A stretch of 32,279 bases of DNA. Source: an uncultured Parvularculaceae bacterium. Its GTDB lineage: Bacteria > Pseudomonadota > Alphaproteobacteria > Caulobacterales > Parvularculaceae. The notes below the pieces were generated by a model, which was not told where the DNA came from, made no database searches, and saw only the letters and a program-made list of their open reading frames with translations. A program made the position numbers and the translations under genes. The DNA is taken from contig CALLPQ010000172.1 of assembly GCA_938015425.1 (NCBI GenBank), positions 1 through 32,279 of the forward strand, written 5' to 3'. Shown in pieces: positions 13,889 through 30,209 of this stretch (its first letter is position 1; each line of letters starts with the position of its first letter).

Positions 13889-13904
13889 TATAATAATCTT
13901 GATT
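13889..13904. repeat. Short perfect inverted repeat over the PodJ-like stop codon
   Basis: The inverted repeat AATAATC-TT-GATTATT ends at the stop codon of the PodJ-like gene. On the gene's strand the adjacent homopolymer is A, not T, so it is not a standard intrinsic terminator for that gene. Confidence 0.5.
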
Positions 13905-16900
13905 ATTGAGAAAGGTTTTGGTTTGCCTGCGTATTGACCGGATTGCTGCGCCATTTATTAACGTCAATATTAATTCTTTCTCTTTGTCCTCGGCTTAACC
14001 GTGCAGATAAAGCGGCAGATTTTGCACCCGCTTGGCCGTCGCCATTTAATGAAGCAAGTGCATACCAGTAATAGGCTTTTTCAATATCTTGAATGCCTTG
14101 AGGGTCATTGCCAAGACCTGGATCATAAATTGCGCCAAGGTTAAACTGGGAATCAAGAAATCCGAAATTTGCGGCTTTTTCGAACCAGCTAATGGCCGTT
14201 GTGATATCGGCGCTACCGCCTTCACCTTCTGCATATAGATAGGCAAGGCGATGCATTGCATAGACATTGCCGGCTGTTGCTGCGCGAAGGAACCATTTTC
14301 TGGATTCTACTGCATTTTTCTCGGTAAAATTACCATTCTTGTAATATTCTGCGAGCTGGAATTGAGCAGGAGGATATCCTAAAAGAGCTGCATTGCGAAG
14401 GTCGTTAAAGGCATCTGATGCGACTTCACCAGTTGGGTTGGTGTTCAAAATCTCAACGCTTTGGGTAAATAATGTTTCAGGGCGCGTTGTCGGGTCTACA
14501 GCTGACGGGACGCTGACCTCGTTAGGGTCAAATGGCGTGGTTGAGCCAAGCGGAGCACCAAGTGTGACACTGTCGGTCCCATCAATCCTTGCATTATTGA
14601 TGTTTGGTCGGGTCCTATTAGGGGTGCCGACGGGGGTCGTGCCCCTACTTGTATCAGCAGTACTGATCGTCGGGATGGATGATGAAGGGGCAGGCTTGTT
14701 GAAAAGGAAGGGTAGAGCAATTTTGTAAACAGCAAACAAGGCGAGCGCTAATATCGTAAAGCCGATTAATGCAGCGGATAATAGCGTTAGCGACCCATGA
14801 GGTGTGATGAAAGAGCGTTGTAATAAGCCTCTATCATCATCAATTTCCGCGTCAATAACCCGATTACGACTAATGATGTTTACGCCAGATGTATCTTCAT
14901 CGTTTAGTGTGTCATTTTTTTTTTTAGATGCTCTGCCTGAGGGAATATCGGACTGGGTTTTGCGTTTTTTAAGAAACGTTCCCTTAAGGTTAGCCATTAA
15001 ACCATGGTGTTCTTCTTCGTCATCATTATAGCGATCGTCACGATAGTTGGCACTGTGAGCGGTTATTTTATTTTGTTCCTGGTCTTTGCTTGCCTTTAAG
15101 GTATTTGCTTCACGTTTTTTACGGGCACGTGCCGCTAATATTGCTTTTTGCTTCGGGGTTAGTTTAGCAACATCAAGCCGTCCATCAGAGGTGCGAGGAA
15201 GGGGACCAAGTGTTGCTTTTTGGCGCGCTGGTTGTGTTTTTCTCTGTTCTTCCTGTGCCGCCTCTGCCCGTGTTTGCGCCCGTGCTTGCGCCGGTACTTG
15301 CCTATGTGTTTCCGCCTGTGCTTCTACCTGCGTATCTTGAGGAGGGTTATTACTGACTGATGGGTTTTGCTGGTTTGTTTGCTGATTTAAAGGTTGTGTG
15401 ATTGTTTCATTGACACTTGAAAAAGGGTCAAACCCGTCATCAGCTTCATTTAACTGATTATCAATATCTGCCTGACTGCCTGATTTATACTCTTCCGGCT
15501 CGAACTCTTCCAATCCCGGTTCAGCACTATTGTCATCTAAAATCTGGTTGATTTCTGCCCTGATGGTTTCGTTTTCATCGTCGGCAAGGGACAATGCATC
15601 ATTATTATAGTCCGGTGTCGCTGGCTCCGGAGTACCAAGCTCCTGAGTGGGTTCATTGTCATAAAAATCGTTGAGCTCGAATGCATCATTGATTGTATTA
15701 TCAATCTCGCTGTTATGAGGAGTGGATTGATGGTCTAGAACGCTTTCCACCGTAAGGTCTTCCTCTTCTTCGTAGAGAGAACCCTTTGCAGCAGCCGTCA
15801 TATGGGATTGGGTGTTAGAGTGAGCATCCGTTAGCGGAGTAGATTGTTCATCAGGGTTTTGTGTATTGCCAAAATTACCTTCTTGATTGTCATCTTCGAA
15901 ATCAAAATCCCCTAATCCGATACTTTCAGCGCTGGTTTGCTCTAGGCTTTCATCAAGATCCAGATCGTTGTCGAGAGTGTTTGTGGGTTTAACCTCTGCG
16001 CTAGTAGTTTGCTGATTAGAAGATTGATTGGCAAGATGTTCCCCGATCTGGGTAGCAATCAATGATTTAATTGTCGCTTGATCAATCTGTTTAGGTTCGG
16101 CCGCCTTGTGGGATACTTGCCCGCGCAAGCTGGTCATGAGGTCGGTTACTTTTTGCAATCCTTCAGCGTTACGCTGTTCTGCTGCATCGATTTGGTCATT
16201 GAGTTTGCTAATTAAAGTTTCGAGGGAGCGTATCTGATCCCCGCCGCGCTTAATCTCATCGCCCAGAACTCTTAATCTTTTGCCGGTTCGCTCGGCAAAA
16301 TGGGGATCTTCAATATGGCCGTCATTCTCCCCGTTTTCAGGTGTTTTATCTGTTTTTTCGTTTTGCTGGCTCTCGATTGTATCAAGGCGTGCATCAAGGG
16401 TTTTTATTGAGCTGACGATTTGCAATAAAGAGGCTTTAGTCTGTTTATCTTTTTCATCGCTAATTTCGGGTGAGGCTTTACCACTTGGTTTAGCCGAGAG
16501 CTTTGCGTTGATATCGTTTAGACACGCAGTCATGTCTTTTTGGCTCTGCTCATTAGCCTCAATTCTAGTCAGCGACGTTTTGTGGCTGGTTTCGAACTGT
16601 ACCGCCATTTGCCCAACAGCTTTTTCAAGTGCTCGCAAGGCCTCAATTCTGTTACGATCGTTGGTTTTTTCTTCTAATTTATTCAGGCGCGCCAATAGAT
16701 CAGGGTCCGTACCAGCATTATCGAGGTTTGATTTAATGCCCTGATTTGTGTTTTTCTCTAGCCCCTCCAGCCTTTGAGCAAGGCCGGAGATGTTTTTCTC
16801 CACAGTGTCGGCTTGTTTTTTATTGTTTTCTTCGTTTTTTATAAGCTGGTCGTTAAGGTGGCTGATGGCGACGACCAATTCTTTGGTCAGTCCTTCATTT

Positions 16901-17049
16901 TGCCCGCTTTGTGCGGCTTCTGCGATGGCTTGGTTGAGCCATTCGCCAACGGTTTTACCTTCTTTACGTGCCGCTTCCTTCGCGGTTTCACGTGAGTCGC
17001 GGGCAATGCCTTTGACGCTCCATGGTGCATTGGACTTCATATTTGCCAC
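13903..17049 (-). CDS. PodJ-like polar localisation scaffold with Sel1 repeats
   Basis: This is a 1048-residue protein. The N-terminus (PWSVKGIARDSRETAKEAAR, then GEWLNQAI) is the sequence I associate with PodJ-type localisation factors in alphaproteobacteria. Residues 45-340 are predicted coiled coil. Residues 340-590 are acidic, Asn/Gln/Asp-rich and probably disordered, and residues 590-740 are basic, with an Ala/Gln/Arg repeat near 590 (AQARAQTRAEAAQEE). One membrane helix lies at about 753-777. Residues 865-1010 are Sel1-type tetratricopeptide repeats (AEYYKNGNFTEKNAVESRKWF, LAYLYAEGEGG). This predicts a cytoplasmic scaffold and a periplasmic Sel1 domain, as in Caulobacter PodJ, which recruits polar and cell-division proteins. 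The start is GTG with AAGGA nine bases upstream; the ATG three codons later is too far from that site. Confidence 0.88.
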   Translation of the reverse strand: MANMKSNAPWSVKGIARDSRETAKEAARKEGKTVGEWLNQAIAEAAQSGQNEGLTKELVVAISHLNDQLIKNEENNKKQADTVEKNISGLAQRLEGLEKNTNQGIKSNLDNAGTDPDLLARLNKLEEKTNDRNRIEALRALEKAVGQMAVQFETSHKTSLTRIEANEQSQKDMTACLNDINAKLSAKPSGKASPEISDEKDKQTKASLLQIVSSIKTLDARLDTIESQQNEKTDKTPENGENDGHIEDPHFAERTGKRLRVLGDEIKRGGDQIRSLETLISKLNDQIDAAEQRNAEGLQKVTDLMTSLRGQVSHKAAEPKQIDQATIKSLIATQIGEHLANQSSNQQTTSAEVKPTNTLDNDLDLDESLEQTSAESIGLGDFDFEDDNQEGNFGNTQNPDEQSTPLTDAHSNTQSHMTAAAKGSLYEEEEDLTVESVLDHQSTPHNSEIDNTINDAFELNDFYDNEPTQELGTPEPATPDYNNDALSLADDENETIRAEINQILDDNSAEPGLEEFEPEEYKSGSQADIDNQLNEADDGFDPFSSVNETITQPLNQQTNQQNPSVSNNPPQDTQVEAQAETHRQVPAQARAQTRAEAAQEEQRKTQPARQKATLGPLPRTSDGRLDVAKLTPKQKAILAARARKKREANTLKASKDQEQNKITAHSANYRDDRYNDDEEEHHGLMANLKGTFLKKRKTQSDIPSGRASKKKNDTLNDEDTSGVNIISRNRVIDAEIDDDRGLLQRSFITPHGSLTLLSAALIGFTILALALFAVYKIALPFLFNKPAPSSSIPTISTADTSRGTTPVGTPNRTRPNINNARIDGTDSVTLGAPLGSTTPFDPNEVSVPSAVDPTTRPETLFTQSVEILNTNPTGEVASDAFNDLRNAALLGYPPAQFQLAEYYKNGNFTEKNAVESRKWFLRAATAGNVYAMHRLAYLYAEGEGGSADITTAISWFEKAANFGFLDSQFNLGAIYDPGLGNDPQGIQDIEKAYYWYALASLNGDGQAGAKSAALSARLSRGQRERINIDVNKWRSNPVNTQANQNLSQ

Positions 17050-21241: not shown

Positions 21242-22504
21242 ATGGCGCGCATTGTCATGAAATTTGGCGGAACATCAGTTGCCGATGTTGATCGCATTCG
21301 AAATGTTGCCCGTTTCGTGCGCCGTGAAGTGGAATCGGGCCATAGCGTCGTGGTGGTCGTGTCGGCTATGGCGGGGCAAACCAATAAATTAGTTGAGTTT
21401 TGCAAGAATGTCGGTAGCCCCAGCCCCGCCTTGGACATGCAGAATATTGAATATGACGCAGTGGTTTCCAGTGGTGAGCAAGTGACTTCGGCATTACTGG
21501 CTTTAACATTGCAAAACCTCGGGTTTCGGGCGCGTTCATGGCAGGGATGGCAAATTCCGCTTAAAACAAATAACGCCCATGGTAAGGCGCGTATTCTGGA
21601 AATTCCTGAAACCAATATCGGCCCTGCTATTGATGGTGGGGAGGTCGCTATTGTGGCTGGTTTTCAGGGAATAGAAAAAAATAGCCGGATAACAACCTTG
21701 GGCCGCGGGGGCTCGGATACTACGGCGGTGGCGCTGGCGGCGGCAATAGGGGCGGAGCGCTGTGATATCTATACAGATGTTGATGGTGTGTATACGACGG
21801 ACCCACGGATTGCTAAAAATGCCCGACGTATCCCGCGAATATCATATGAGGAAATGTTGGAGATGGCGTCAGTTGGCGCGAAGGTTTTACAAACGCGGTC
21901 TGTCGAGCTGGCCATGGCCTATTCTGTGCGACTGCGTGTATTATCAAGTTTTGAAGAGCCGGGTTTTGCTGACGAGAGTGGCACCGGTACTGTTATTTGT
22001 GGTGAGGATGAAATTGTGGAACAGGAAATCGTTAGTGCTATTACACCGTCACGAGATGAAGCGAAGATTAGTTTAATCGCTGTACCGAATGAACCGGGGC
22101 GGGCAGCATCGATATTTATCTATCTGGCGGATGCAAACATCAATGTGGATATGATTGTTCAAAGTCCATCGCGATCGCCGGACTCGGCCAATATTTCTTT
22201 TACAATGCATGTTAACGATATTGAAACTGCGGCTGACTTGTTGAATAAGCGCAAAGGTGAAATCGGGTTTTCCGACATCACGCTGGATAAAGAAATTGCC
22301 AAGGTTTCGGTTATTGGCGTGGGCATGAAGAGCCATACTGGTGTTGCGTCGGTTATGTTTAAAACCCTGGCTGATCGGGGCATTAACATTCAAAATATTT
22401 CTACATCAGAAATTAAAATTAGTGTGCTAATTGATTCTGAATATACGGAATTGGCTGTGCGGGCCTTGCATCAAGCTTATGGGCTTGACCAGCTTGGCGG
22501 CTAA
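21242..22504 (+). CDS. lysC: Aspartate kinase
   Basis: This 420-residue enzyme phosphorylates aspartate, the first step towards lysine, threonine, methionine and diaminopimelate. Visible are the N-terminal KFGGTSVADVDRI nucleotide-binding strand, the SSGEQVTSALLA segment, GRGGSDTTAVALA and YTDVDGVYTTDPRI. Two ACT domains follow, beginning near residues 275 and 355 (LIAVPNEPGRAASIF; VSVIGVGMKSHTGVASVMF), which normally bind the allosteric end products. Length matches the monofunctional alphaproteobacterial class. Start at 21242; the upstream purine stretch (AGAAG) is only a weak Shine-Dalgarno. It is followed by ptsP after 229 bp. Confidence 0.97.
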   Translation: MARIVMKFGGTSVADVDRIRNVARFVRREVESGHSVVVVVSAMAGQTNKLVEFCKNVGSPSPALDMQNIEYDAVVSSGEQVTSALLALTLQNLGFRARSWQGWQIPLKTNNAHGKARILEIPETNIGPAIDGGEVAIVAGFQGIEKNSRITTLGRGGSDTTAVALAAAIGAERCDIYTDVDGVYTTDPRIAKNARRIPRISYEEMLEMASVGAKVLQTRSVELAMAYSVRLRVLSSFEEPGFADESGTGTVICGEDEIVEQEIVSAITPSRDEAKISLIAVPNEPGRAASIFIYLADANINVDMIVQSPSRSPDSANISFTMHVNDIETAADLLNKRKGEIGFSDITLDKEIAKVSVIGVGMKSHTGVASVMFKTLADRGINIQNISTSEIKISVLIDSEYTELAVRALHQAYGLDQLGG

Positions 22505-22733: not shown

Positions 22734-25028
22734 ATGAATATCGAGAAAACAAGGCCGCCTTATGGCGGCCATGGTGATCGCGGCATTACGGTCTTGCTAA
22801 AGAAAATGCATGATGTGGTGGCCGATGATGTAAACGCACAAGAACGCCTTGATCATTTAACCACGATCATTGCCAACCATGTGGTGGCCGATGTTTGCTC
22901 GATTTATTTACGCCGTAGTGATGATCGACTGGAATTATTTGCGACCACTGGCCTAAAAACCGAAGCGGTCCATATAACACGCCTGACTTGGGGCGAGGGG
23001 CTTGTTGGTCTTGTGGCGGATAATCAACAACCGCTTGTGACCGATAATGCACCGGCCCATCCTGCTTTTTCTTATCGCCCTGAAACAGGTGAAGATTTAT
23101 TGCAATCCTTTTTGGGGGTTCCCTTATTACATTCAGGGCAGGTGTTGGGTGTTTTGGTTTTGCAAAACCACAAAGCCCGTCAGTATAAAGAAGATGAAGT
23201 GGGTGCGGCCCAAGCGGTGGCAACTTTATTGGCTGAAATTGCCGCTTCTGGTGAACTTCTTGATAGGGCCGAGACCCAAGAAGTTGATGAGGTGCTGCAC
23301 CGCCCTGAGTCATTAAAAGGTAGCGGTGTTGTGCCCGGCATTGTAATTGCCCAAGCAGCGACCCATGAAGCTCCTATTCCAAAACATAGGGTTTTTGCAG
23401 GGGATGTGAGTGTAGAGGCAAAGAAATTAGAAACCGGCTTGGAATTATTACGCGAGTCGGTGGACAATATGTTGTTGAAGAAAGACCTGAAGGGGGTTTC
23501 TCGCGAAGTCTTGGAGACTTATCGCTTGTTTGCCTATGATCGGGGCTGGAAAGAACGATTGCGTACGGCGGTTTTTTCTGGCCTAAGCGCGGAAACAGCG
23601 GTGTTGCGGGTTAAAGCGGAAAACCGTGAGCGGATGAATAAATCTGCGGATCCCTATTTGCGCGAACGCCTTTATGATCTTGATGATCTGGCTAATCGGT
23701 TAATCCGTTTAATGAACGGGGAATCTCCTGATACGCCGCGAGCATTGCCCGAGAATGCGATTTTGTTTGCGGAAACAATGGGCCCTGCGGAGTTGCTTGA
23801 ATATGACCGTGAAAAGTTAAAAGGGGTTGTCTTGGCGGATGCGTCCCAGACCTCCCATGTGGCGATCGTTGCCCGGGCAATGGAAATCCCGATGCTGGGC
23901 GGTTTATCGCAAGCCTTTGACCGGATCGAAGAAGGCGATACAATTATCATTGATGGTACCACGGGTGATTTACACATTCGTCCGAACCAAGATGTTTTAA
24001 CCAGTTATAAGAATAAGCAAGAATTACAATCTGAAAAACAGGCGCGCTATGCCAAAGAGCGCCATCTCGCTTCTGTCTCTTTAGACGGGCGGGAGATAGA
24101 TATATTGATGAATGCGGGTTTGGTGTTGGATATGCCGCATCTGGTCTCAACAGGCGCGGTGGGGGTTGGGTTATTTCGAACCGAGTTACAATTTTTAATT
24201 GGCTCGCAATTACCAAGTGTGGAGCAGCAAGAAACCCTTTACCGCGAGGTGATGGATTATGCTAACGGGAAACCTGTGATTTTCCGCACGGCTGATCTTG
24301 GCGGTGATAAAACGGCTGAATATATGCACCGTAGTCAAGAAGTGAACCCAGCTATGGGCTGGCGCGGCTTGCGCATGGCGGTGGATCGGCCAGGGCTTTT
24401 CCGTCCGCAACTCCGCGCGCTTTTATCGGCTACGGCGGGGGGGTATTTAAATGTCATGCTGCCTATGGTGACATTGGGGTCTGAAATTGATGAAGCCAGA
24501 CATATGCTTGATCTGGAAATCAATTGGCATAAAAAGCGGAATAAACCTTTGCCAAAAACGATTAAGATTGGCGCGATGATTGAAACCCCTGCTGCGGCTT
24601 GGGCGTTGGAGCATATTGCCCCCAAGGTTGATTTTTTCTCCGTAGGCGGAAATGACCTGGCGCAATTTTATTTTGCTGCTGATCGCGAGACCCCTGCTGT
24701 TACGAGACGGTTTGATCCGTTAAATACGGGCTTCTTAAGTTTCTTGAAGCGTATTGTAAGTAAATCGGAAGAAGCAAAAGTGCCGCTTGGTTATTGCGGG
24801 GAGCAAGTGTCTGATCCGTTGGTTGCAGTTGGATTGCTTGGTGTGGGCATCAAACATTTTTCTGTGCCCGCAACCATGGTTGGGCCTTTTAGGCGATTAG
24901 TGCGTCATCTTCATATGGACCGCCTTGAAGAGTGGTTTGATGATCAACTTTTATCGTCGCGGGATAGTTTACGGATTGATTTACAAAACTATCTAAAATC
25001 TGAAGATATTAAGGTTGAAGACTTATAG
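22734..25028 (+). CDS. ptsP: Phosphoenolpyruvate-protein phosphotransferase, nitrogen PTS enzyme I
   Basis: This 764-residue enzyme is made of an N-terminal GAF domain (about 20-165), then the enzyme I core. The core has an NPr-binding helical part, the phosphohistidine domain with His375 in ASQTSHVAIVARAMEIP, and a PEP-binding barrel with GLFRTELQF, IGAMIETPAAAW, GGNDLAQF and the catalytic Cys688 (GYCGEQ). EI-Ntr takes phosphate from PEP and passes it to NPr and EIIA-Ntr, a regulatory relay linking carbon, nitrogen and potassium status. The GAF domain senses glutamine in characterised homologues. lysC-ptsP adjacency is usual for the class. The expected downstream prfA is not here. Confidence 0.95.
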   Translation: MNIEKTRPPYGGHGDRGITVLLKKMHDVVADDVNAQERLDHLTTIIANHVVADVCSIYLRRSDDRLELFATTGLKTEAVHITRLTWGEGLVGLVADNQQPLVTDNAPAHPAFSYRPETGEDLLQSFLGVPLLHSGQVLGVLVLQNHKARQYKEDEVGAAQAVATLLAEIAASGELLDRAETQEVDEVLHRPESLKGSGVVPGIVIAQAATHEAPIPKHRVFAGDVSVEAKKLETGLELLRESVDNMLLKKDLKGVSREVLETYRLFAYDRGWKERLRTAVFSGLSAETAVLRVKAENRERMNKSADPYLRERLYDLDDLANRLIRLMNGESPDTPRALPENAILFAETMGPAELLEYDREKLKGVVLADASQTSHVAIVARAMEIPMLGGLSQAFDRIEEGDTIIIDGTTGDLHIRPNQDVLTSYKNKQELQSEKQARYAKERHLASVSLDGREIDILMNAGLVLDMPHLVSTGAVGVGLFRTELQFLIGSQLPSVEQQETLYREVMDYANGKPVIFRTADLGGDKTAEYMHRSQEVNPAMGWRGLRMAVDRPGLFRPQLRALLSATAGGYLNVMLPMVTLGSEIDEARHMLDLEINWHKKRNKPLPKTIKIGAMIETPAAAWALEHIAPKVDFFSVGGNDLAQFYFAADRETPAVTRRFDPLNTGFLSFLKRIVSKSEEAKVPLGYCGEQVSDPLVAVGLLGVGIKHFSVPATMVGPFRRLVRHLHMDRLEEWFDDQLLSSRDSLRIDLQNYLKSEDIKVEDL

Positions 25029-25375: not shown

Positions 25376-26242
25376 ATGAGTGGATTTGGTGTGATGACGG
25401 GGAAGAGTGCAGAAATTCTAAATATGGAAGCCGCTCGTGCAAAGCGACAGGATTTTGCTGCGAATACAGGGTTTGATACTGCTGGAGCCTATTTAAAAGG
25501 GGAGCGTGAGGCCCTTGGCTTGTCCCTAGAAGATGTTTCAAAGAAAACCCATATTAAAACAAACCACCTAAACGGTATCGAGACCGGCGACCTTTCATTG
25601 TTGCCAGCGCGTGCTTATGTCAGTGGTTTCGTAAAGACCTATGCGGAGCATCTTGGTCTTGATGCTTCCCCGATTGTGACCCGCTTTAAAGAAGATGTTG
25701 GTCTGATCACGACAGTAGAGGTCGAGGCAAGCTCTTTTGATGTTAGTGACACAGTAGATGAGCTTGAACCACGAGAAATGTCTTTGTGGGCTGTGATTGC
25801 TATTCTTGGGTTTATGTTTTGGTGCGGCTGGAAAATTGCCATACCGCAAGATGCGACTTCACCTGCGGATCAGCTAGAAGGGTTTCCAAAACCTTCTCTT
25901 GCCACTGTTGCGCCGGCCATCATCGATATCGATCAACAAGCAATCGAGGTTTTACAATCTGACGCTGATTTATTGGCGCGGCTCGTTGAAAAGGTAACGC
26001 CGATTTATCCCCGCTTATGTGAAGGACGTGCGGCGCCAAATGAAAATGTAGAAATCAGTTTTAATATTACGGCTGATGGGCGTGTGGCGGGTACACGTGT
26101 TTTATCTTCCACAAATGCCTGTTTCGAGCGCTCTGCGCTTAATGCTATTAAACGCTGGCGGTTTTCACCTCGCATGGTCGAAGGGGTTGCCCAACCTTCT
26201 TATGATCAAGTCTATAGGATGGGTTTTAAAAAACCTGCCTAA
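25376..26242 (+). CDS. RodZ-like HTH protein with C-terminal TonB domain
   Basis: This 288-residue protein has three parts. Residues 38-107 are a RodZ-type HTH (YLKGEREALGLSLEDVSKKT; ARAYVSGFVKTYAEHLGLD). Residues 136-155 are one membrane helix (LWAVIAILGFMFWCGW). Residues 205-288 match a TonB C-terminal domain (ITADGRVAGTRVLSS, then ALNAIKRWRFSPRM). RodZ links MreB to the wall machinery with its HTH inside the cell; the usual periplasmic domain is a different beta domain (DUF4115). TonB usually has a short inner tail, an SxxxH motif in its helix and a long Pro-rich linker. None of these is visible here: the linker is only about 48 residues. So neither ordinary role is safe. It is separated from ptsP by 347 bp and converges with the molybdenum hydroxylase genes. 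Confidence 0.85.
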   Translation: MSGFGVMTGKSAEILNMEAARAKRQDFAANTGFDTAGAYLKGEREALGLSLEDVSKKTHIKTNHLNGIETGDLSLLPARAYVSGFVKTYAEHLGLDASPIVTRFKEDVGLITTVEVEASSFDVSDTVDELEPREMSLWAVIAILGFMFWCGWKIAIPQDATSPADQLEGFPKPSLATVAPAIIDIDQQAIEVLQSDADLLARLVEKVTPIYPRLCEGRAAPNENVEISFNITADGRVAGTRVLSSTNACFERSALNAIKRWRFSPRMVEGVAQPSYDQVYRMGFKKPA

Positions 26243-29141: not shown

Positions 29142-29189
29142 GGTATAATGATTTAAGACCATAAAGAGTTATGATCATAAGGGTTTATG
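29142..29189. repeat. Three-unit 16-bp degenerate tandem repeat
   Basis: The units are GGTATAATGATTTAAG, ACCATAAAGAGTTATG and ATCATAAGGGTTTATG. Units 2 and 3 match at 12 of 16 positions, units 1 and 2 at 10. They lie between the divergent molybdenum hydroxylase operon and the CoA-transferase fragment; the last unit supplies the ATG the ORF track uses as start. Confidence 0.75.
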
Positions 29190-29231
29190 CCTTATCGGGT
29201 TTTTGGGTGGAGCCATGGGAAAGTAAAATTT

Positions 29232-29516
29232 ATGACGCAAATGGGCAAAGATAATAGAACGAAACATCAGGATCAAAACCAACCCCCCTCTAAAGGGTCA
29301 GGCCAAAACCTAAACGGGCCATTGACAGGCGTTAGGGTGTTAGATTTAAGCCGTATTTTGGCGGGCCCGTTTGCGAGCCAGCAATTAGGAGATTTAGGCG
29401 CCGAGATATTAAAGATCAAGCGCCCTGTTGATGGAGATGATACGAGAAAATGGGGGTCGCCTTTTGCGTCAATATTCGCCAAAAGGGACAGACATTGCCG
29501 TTCACTCGCAGACTAG
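29232..29516 (+). pseudogene. Truncated CaiB/BaiF-type family III CoA-transferase (N-terminal fragment)
   Basis: The fragment reads LTGVRVLDLSRILAGPFASQQLGDLGAEILKI, then DGDDTRKWGSPF, the characteristic N-terminus of formyl-CoA/crotonobetainyl-CoA transferases. Similarity then stops and about 16 unrelated residues lead to a TAG, so about 95 codons of an enzyme normally near 400 residues remain. The catalytic aspartate, which lies around residue 170 in such enzymes, is missing. The fragment should be inactive. Start is uncertain: an ATG at 29187 (in the repeat) or at 29232; I use the latter, since the family-like sequence begins further on. The break falls near 29465 and coincides with the change to AT-rich accessory sequence. 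Confidence 0.85.
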
Positions 29517-29602
29517 GTGTTTAGTACCGGGAAGTGATGGTTTGGATTATTGATAAATAATTGCGGCGATACCTATAGGTATACGGAGTTAGATCGAAAA
29601 GA

Positions 29603-29610
29603 GGAGGAGG
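29603..29610 (+). promoter_or_regulatory. Very strong Shine-Dalgarno before the nuclease-like gene
   Basis: The purine run GAGGAGGAGG ends two bases before the ATG at 29613. It supports MATKED as the start over the TTG at 29550 in the track, and it is stronger than the sites of most other genes in the window. Confidence 0.75.
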
Positions 29611-29612
29611 CT

Positions 29613-30209
29613 ATGGCTACAAAAGAAGATATTTTAGAGCAAATCACTGAGGAGTATTTAATTCATAAAGGATATTTCGTTCAGCATAATGTAAAATTTC
29701 TACCTGATCCTAATCATAAAGATTATCGAAAAAAAGAAGATAGTAATCACTCTGATATTGATGTTCTTGGTTATCACCCGAGAAAACCTGGCGTTGATAA
29801 AGTTGTCGCTGTAAGTTGTAAAAGCTGGCAAGGTGGATTTAAACCAGACACGTGGCTTAAAAATATTCAGGAAAACAAAAAAAGTAGTGGGCGGCCTGCA
29901 TGGAAAGCTTTTCGAGAACTGACTAGCCCGAAATGGTCAGAGGCGTTTTGTGATGTGATTTATGAAATGACTGGAAGTCGTCAGTTTACTTATGTTGTTG
30001 CGGTCTCTCATTGTAAAGGTGATAAGGCGCTTTGGGAGAGGGAGGTCAAATTCCAAGAGGCCTTAAATGGTAACTCAATTAAGGTTTTGACATTTGGTGA
30101 GATGGTTGATTTTATTGAAGAGGGGTTAAGTACAACATTGGCGGCTACGGAGGTTGGGAGGCTTTTACAAATGTTTAAAGCTGCTAATTTGGATGTGAAG
30201 TGTCGATGA
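29613..30209 (+). CDS. Putative PD-(D/E)XK-like nuclease (orphan restriction endonuclease fold candidate)
   Basis: I do not recognise the exact family of this 198-residue protein. The layout suggests a PD-(D/E)XK fold: an N-terminal helix with Glu13-Glu14 (ITEEYLIHKGYFV), an acidic strand SDIDVLGYHP (Asp48, Asp50) and the strand VVAVSCKSWQGGF with Lys70. In the classic site a Glu or Gln sits two before the Lys; here it is Ser68, seen in some divergent lineages but able to weaken catalysis. A second half (TYVVAVSHCKG, VKVLTFGEMVDFIEEGL-like) may complete the fold. No methyltransferase or specificity subunit is visible, so it is an orphan. Base use is more AT-rich than the core genes upstream. 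Confidence 0.6.
   Translation: MATKEDILEQITEEYLIHKGYFVQHNVKFLPDPNHKDYRKKEDSNHSDIDVLGYHPRKPGVDKVVAVSCKSWQGGFKPDTWLKNIQENKKSSGRPAWKAFRELTSPKWSEAFCDVIYEMTGSRQFTYVVAVSHCKGDKALWEREVKFQEALNGNSIKVLTFGEMVDFIEEGLSTTLAATEVGRLLQMFKAANLDVKCR

Follow-up and report, generated by a model that had tools for sequence, protein, structure and literature searches.

Background

RodZ joins MreB inside the bacterial cell to wall synthesis outside it. Mutation of an aromatic pair in the RodZ proteins of E. coli and Chlamydia weakens or abolishes MreB binding (PMC6946637, PMC4047632), while the periplasmic domain of RodZ (RodZ_C) is largely dispensable in E. coli and is absent from Chlamydia RodZ (PMC6946637, PMC4047632). 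For these reasons RodZ_C is not treated here as a defining feature of RodZ, and its dispensability in E. coli leaves the role of the periplasmic part unsettled. The TonB C-terminal domain (TonB_C) is best known from transport, and at least one TonB-like protein has been placed elsewhere: SjdR of Anabaena, which carries a cytosolic extension, is reported to affect the peptidoglycan of the septum but to leave siderophore uptake unaffected (PMC8262864).

The gene described here lies in a stretch of 32,279 nucleotides (the window; contig CALLPQ010000172.1) from an uncultured bacterium of the Parvularculaceae, a family of marine alphaproteobacteria. A preliminary description made from the letters alone had recognized a RodZ-like cytoplasmic half joined by one membrane helix to a TonB-like periplasmic half. 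The profile, structure-prediction and comparative analyses reported below uphold both halves and extend the observation to the family: judged from sequence, the RodZ_C domain of RodZ is replaced by a two-cysteine TonB_C throughout the Parvularculaceae as sampled. No description of an HTH_25 + TonB_C architecture was found in the open-licence literature; the question of whether it is widespread and already characterized is thus answered in part, as it is carried by every complete HTH_25 gene read in one family and no characterization turned up in the literature searched.

Results

Domain organization and predicted fold

The gene (25376..26242, + strand, as are its parts and the lysC and ptsP genes given below) begins with ATG and encodes 288 amino acids arranged as HTH_25, membrane helix, short linker and TonB_C, an order supported by Pfam, NCBIfam, AlphaFold and Foldseek. 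A conserved N-terminal peptide (residues 11-21, 25406..25438, SAEIxxMExxRxxR), in which A12, I14 and R21 are invariant among the short-linker forms defined below, precedes the HTH_25 domain, i.e. the RodZ cytoplasmic domain (residues 39-100, 25490..25675), which was identified by profile, model, Foldseek and alignment (Pfam E 2.8e-21; 75.5 bits, cut-off 24.6). HTH_31 and HTH_3 gave weaker Pfam matches, and the NCBIfam RodZ equivalog models matched the HTH part only, far under their cut-offs (47 vs 375 bits and 17 vs 208). In Foldseek searches with the full model, the HTH part matched two RodZ structures at a target TM of 0.83 each, namely 3fym (RodZ/YmfM of S. aureus) and 2wus (RodZ of T. maritima bound to MreB). 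The MreB-contact aromatic pair is present as Y81/F85 (25616..25630), aligned with F60/Y64 of E. coli RodZ and Y66/F70 of Chlamydia RodZ, and both positions are aromatic in 57/57 family members.

The cytoplasmic part of 136 residues is followed by a single membrane helix (residues 137-155, 25784..25840; AlphaFold model and alignment) with a conserved FxxW motif (F146, W149), and the nature of the two flanking domains implies an orientation in which the C-terminus of the protein is periplasmic. The periplasmic linker (25841..25978), earlier put at about 48 residues, comprises 46 in the model, where it has low confidence; it is acidic (8 D/E and 1 K/R between the helix and the first TonB_C strand) with a proline content of about 9%. 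The TonB C-terminal domain (residues 202-285, 25979..26230; Pfam, NCBIfam, AlphaFold and Foldseek) matched Pfam TonB_C over residues 224-273 (E 4.2e-10; 40.4 bits, cut-off 24.6) and NCBIfam tonB_Cterm over residues 210-275 (E 2.5e-11), together with a weak match to the NCBIfam AgmX/PglI C-terminal model (E 6.4e-5). By alignment it contains an invariant pair of cysteines, Cys215 (26018..26020) and Cys249 (26120..26122), which may form a disulphide. PF13464 (RodZ_C) has no match in the 288-aa protein or in its genome.

An AlphaFold model built from a 40-sequence alignment, the check that had been proposed at the outset, gave confident predictions for the HTH domain (about 31-110), the helix (137-155) and TonB_C (202-285), with the linker disordered; the TonB_C domain modelled alone reached pLDDT 97. 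TonB structures ranked first when this part was searched with Foldseek (target TM 0.79-0.86 against E. coli TonB structures), the best being 2gsk, the BtuB-TonB complex, at 0.86, and TonB in complex with BtuB, FhuA and FoxA is among the closest solved structures. Profiles, AlphaFold and Foldseek agree, and both domains are real and beyond chance.

The membrane helix

The helix was correctly said to lack the SxxxH motif, which occurs in 0/57 of the family's HTH_25-TonB_C proteins. The further argument that this absence speaks against ExbB/ExbD did not hold: the Parvularculaceae TonB proteins encoded beside exbB likewise lack SxxxH, so its absence is uninformative here, and we dropped the proposal that it proves independence of ExbBD. 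The two helices are nevertheless unlike each other, with consensus SLxAVxAIxxFxxWCAWQIT in the HTH_25-TonB_C proteins and RLxxGxPxAxxVTxxLFxxM in the family's own TonB.

Distribution of the architecture

Genomes were scanned with an alignment of relatives as the query, and the loci read are the best 30 per search; the genome sets are samples, and long-linker fusions may appear in them as separate matches. Full-length relatives were found only in the Parvularculaceae (e.g., Marinicaulis flavus), where TonB_C is carried by every complete HTH_25 gene read (57 distinct proteins). Outside the family, TonB_C occurred on 0/123 distinct HTH_25 ORFs read, there was no full-length match among the matches listed for sampled genomes of the class (385) and of the phylum (399), and no plasmid match covered 80% of the query. 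RodZ_C, on the other hand, was found in 120/159 other genomes of the order vs none of the Parvularculaceae searched, the window genome included. The absence of RodZ_C from the family, taken with the lack of TonB_C on the 123 outside ORFs, indicates that one lineage swapped the periplasmic domain of RodZ.

Three other accounts were discarded in the course of this survey. A singleton fusion or an assembly chimera is ruled out by relatives of full length on many contigs and in many species; a standard RodZ alongside the fusion, which the preliminary description had asked about, is ruled out for the Parvularculaceae at the sensitivity of PF13464; and an architecture common in Pseudomonadota is ruled out on the samples (class, phylum, outside ORFs and plasmids).

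The two-cysteine TonB_C domain

The cysteine pair (YPxxC ... NxCF) is present in 89/89 Parvularculaceae TonB_C domains examined, 58 of them linked to RodZ and 31 not, and in 0/34 TonB_C domains from outside the family. Joint conservation of the two residues would be explained by a Cys215-Cys249 disulphide. In the domain tree, which has few columns and many unresolved forks, the RodZ-linked TonB_C needs a single change (SH-aLRT 90); the domain was thus apparently captured once by RodZ, and its source was probably the family's own expanded stock of TonB_C domains. Mean identity of TonB_C and HTH is 56.6% and 56.4%, respectively, among the short forms and 45.0% and 50.8% among the long forms, and P212, C215, E223, G235, N247 and C249 of TonB_C are invariant across several genera and both linker classes. 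Conservation as strong as that of the HTH argues for selection on TonB_C and against its being filler.

The two-cysteine family has expanded in the Parvularculaceae, as seen on two contigs of one genome (C11 and C15) and at further loci. Its members also include short TonB-like proteins and a BlaR1/M56 peptidase protein, and tandem TonB_C pairs occur at four loci in proteins of about 350 aa with a signal-like N-terminus. A different family of the order (f5) has TonB_C cysteines at other positions: the five loci read show the motifs GxC.V.FD and SC(T/S)(N/S)S, an arrangement suggesting that a disulphide arose in this fold a second time, independently.

Linker classes and additional copies

The linkers fall into a short class of 31-65 residues and a long class of 100-335. 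The short forms make up one branch (support 89/96) containing genera g1 (the window), g2, g4, g5 and g7; the long form is found in genera g3, g6, g8 and g43, with ptsP or ispG adjoining it at several of the loci read. The two g2 genomes read have a second, long copy between an enoyl-CoA hydratase gene and sdhA. In the Marinicaulis-type genomes read (two loci), the second, long-linker copy is flanked by an enoyl-CoA hydratase gene on one side and, on the other, by the succinate dehydrogenase genes at their sdhA end; the short form is present in Marinicaulis flavus, a culturable species. Among strong matches, one genome (G134) and two nearly complete g4 genomes have the short form only, which is therefore apparently sufficient there.

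An extended polypeptide chain measures about 0.35 nm per residue. At this value the contour of the 46-residue linker comes to about 16 nm, which suffices for reaching the wall, with the outer membrane at the margin of its range; the long-linker forms can span the periplasm. The view that a short linker makes contact with outer-membrane receptors unlikely was accordingly relaxed, since 46 residues is not exclusive of such contact and related forms have 100-335.

The rodZ locus and its genome

Parvularculaceae relatives share the gene order lysC-ptsP-[HTH_25 gene]-ispG-prfA-prmC. In other families of the same order the slot after lysC-ptsP is filled by HTH_25 + RodZ_C proteins, a comparison of five loci read, one of them with another context. 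In the window, lysC (aspartate kinase, 21242..22504, a rodZ-locus marker named from its sequence) and ptsP (GAF domain and PEP-utilizing enzyme, 22734..25028, named from its sequence and place) lie upstream of the gene, the latter as the neighbor marking the rodZ locus, and ispG is elsewhere in the genome, on contig C11.

The window genome (2.55 Mb in 183 contigs, 78% complete) contains a complete Rod cluster mreB-mreC-mreD-pbp2-rodA on contig C74, named from its sequences; MreB is present in 62/62 Parvularculaceae genomes. No second strong HTH_25 protein was found in this genome, which at 78% completeness may still encode one. A standard TonB was also sought, and the genome has a separate TonB-like protein and exbB-exbD-exbD on contig C128. 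No exbBD adjoins the HTH_25-TonB_C gene at any locus read, and no partner gene was found at the locus.

Two other features of the window were recorded. An ORF at 29187-29516 looks like the start of a CoA-transferase (CaiB/BaiF type by eye) and is cut off after 109 aa, directly before an unrelated 219-aa ORF (29550-30209); this is possibly an insertion or a pseudogene. A 1048-aa protein (13903-17049), which has Sel1-like repeats as well as one membrane helix and a region resembling a coiled coil, recalls by eye the PodJ-type polar factors of Caulobacterales.

Discussion

With no other strong HTH_25 protein and no RodZ_C match, no other RodZ candidate is left, and we consider it quite probable that this gene is the rodZ of Parvularculaceae, encoding a Rod-complex adaptor whose TonB_C docks passively on an envelope partner. 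The HTH half would bind MreB, and the helix would cross the inner membrane and link the MreB side to the periplasm. There the oxidized, disulphide-locked TonB_C would dock through the TonB strand-pairing surface on a putative partner. This could be a protein of the Rod complex or of peptidoglycan, or one that lies in the outer membrane and carries a TonB-box-like peptide. The helix unlike that of the family TonB and the lack of exbBD nearby favor passive docking over docking powered by ExbB/ExbD. With its 46 residues, the linker would confine TonB_C mainly to the wall zone; forms with long linkers could go further. These results suggest that Parvularculaceae attach the cytoskeleton to the envelope through a different part, in keeping with the cytoskeleton- or wall-linked role first proposed, which remains the likeliest reading.

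The nature of the partner bears on a special case of the same reading, not exclusive of it, in which TonB_C binds the TonB-box peptide of an outer-membrane protein or lipoprotein and so couples MreB motion to the outer membrane, a coupling of the kind put forward for the TonB_C proteins GltG and GltJ in Myxococcus gliding. The intact strand order of the TonB fold, the receptor-bound TonB complexes among its closest solved structures, the weak AgmX/PglI match, the TonB_C proteins of an MreB-scaffolded machine (PMC5349195) and the periplasm-spanning long linkers are all consistent with such a tether, yet outer-membrane reach is marginal in the short forms (31-65 residues, 46 in the window) and the locus has no partner gene, and we regard it as possible and on balance doubtful. 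In its fullest version, the RodZ TonB_C physically couples MreB, with a disulphide in the dock, to an outer-membrane protein or lipoprotein that bears a TonB box, and this gives a mechanical link between wall growth and the organization of the outer membrane that involves no proton-driven motor; we regard this version as speculative and rather unlikely. A different account is that the replacement was passive, RodZ_C being dispensable and TonB_C only keeping the periplasmic end folded. The E. coli and Chlamydia precedents cited above fit this account; the conservation of TonB_C at the level of the HTH, with its six invariant residues, makes it improbable.

The remaining explanations start from one half of the protein. 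If it were a TonB that had gained a cytoplasmic HTH and powered outer-membrane transport with ExbB/ExbD, the complete TonB_C fold, the exbB-exbD-exbD genes of the genome and the uninformative absence of SxxxH would be accommodated, but a helix unlike that common to the family TonB proteins, 136 residues ahead of it, the absence of adjoining exbBD at every locus read and the existence of dedicated TonB-like proteins make this very unlikely. An Xre-like HTH fold with weaker HTH_31 and HTH_3 matches might belong to a membrane-bound transcription regulator that binds DNA and uses TonB_C as an envelope sensor; that HTH_25 is the RodZ-type HTH, that its nearest solved folds are RodZ proteins, that the MreB pair is aromatic in every family member and that the gene occupies the rodZ locus render a regulator highly improbable.

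The RodZ adaptor reading, if correct, gives the replacement a wider use. A natural, family-wide swap to TonB_C, a domain of known binding mode, is a ready-made test of which periplasmic function of RodZ, if any, is needed, and TonB_C is a small, stable domain with which a partner could be found. The range of TonB_C would also widen, beyond transport, to what appears to be a cytoskeletal adaptor in Alphaproteobacteria.

Comparison with known systems

The protein shares with RodZ (E. coli YfgA, T. maritima 2wus, S. aureus YmfM 3fym and Chlamydia Ct009) the HTH_25 fold, the MreB-contact pair, the single helix, the rodZ locus and an MreB encoded in the genome, and differs in that RodZ_C is exchanged for a two-cysteine TonB_C and that it falls far below the cut-offs of the NCBIfam RodZ equivalogs. 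With TonB (PF03544, TIGR01352) it shares the C-terminal fold and the core motifs YP, DGRV and RWRFxP; it differs from TonB in the HTH-bearing cytoplasmic part of 136 residues, the other helix, the lack of exbBD nearby, the cysteine pair, and a short acidic linker with little proline in place of a long proline-rich spacer. GltG and GltJ (AgmX) of Myxococcus gliding likewise combine a single helix with a C-terminal TonB_C and work within an MreB-scaffolded machine (PMC5349195). They belong, however, to a motor-linked gliding system, and the profile match is only weak here. GltG and GltJ also carry other cytoplasmic domains. SjdR comes from another phylum, has an incomplete TonB C-terminus (PMC8262864) and is not known to carry HTH_25. 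GltG and GltJ, and more loosely SjdR, may thus be taken as precedents for TonB_C outside transport.
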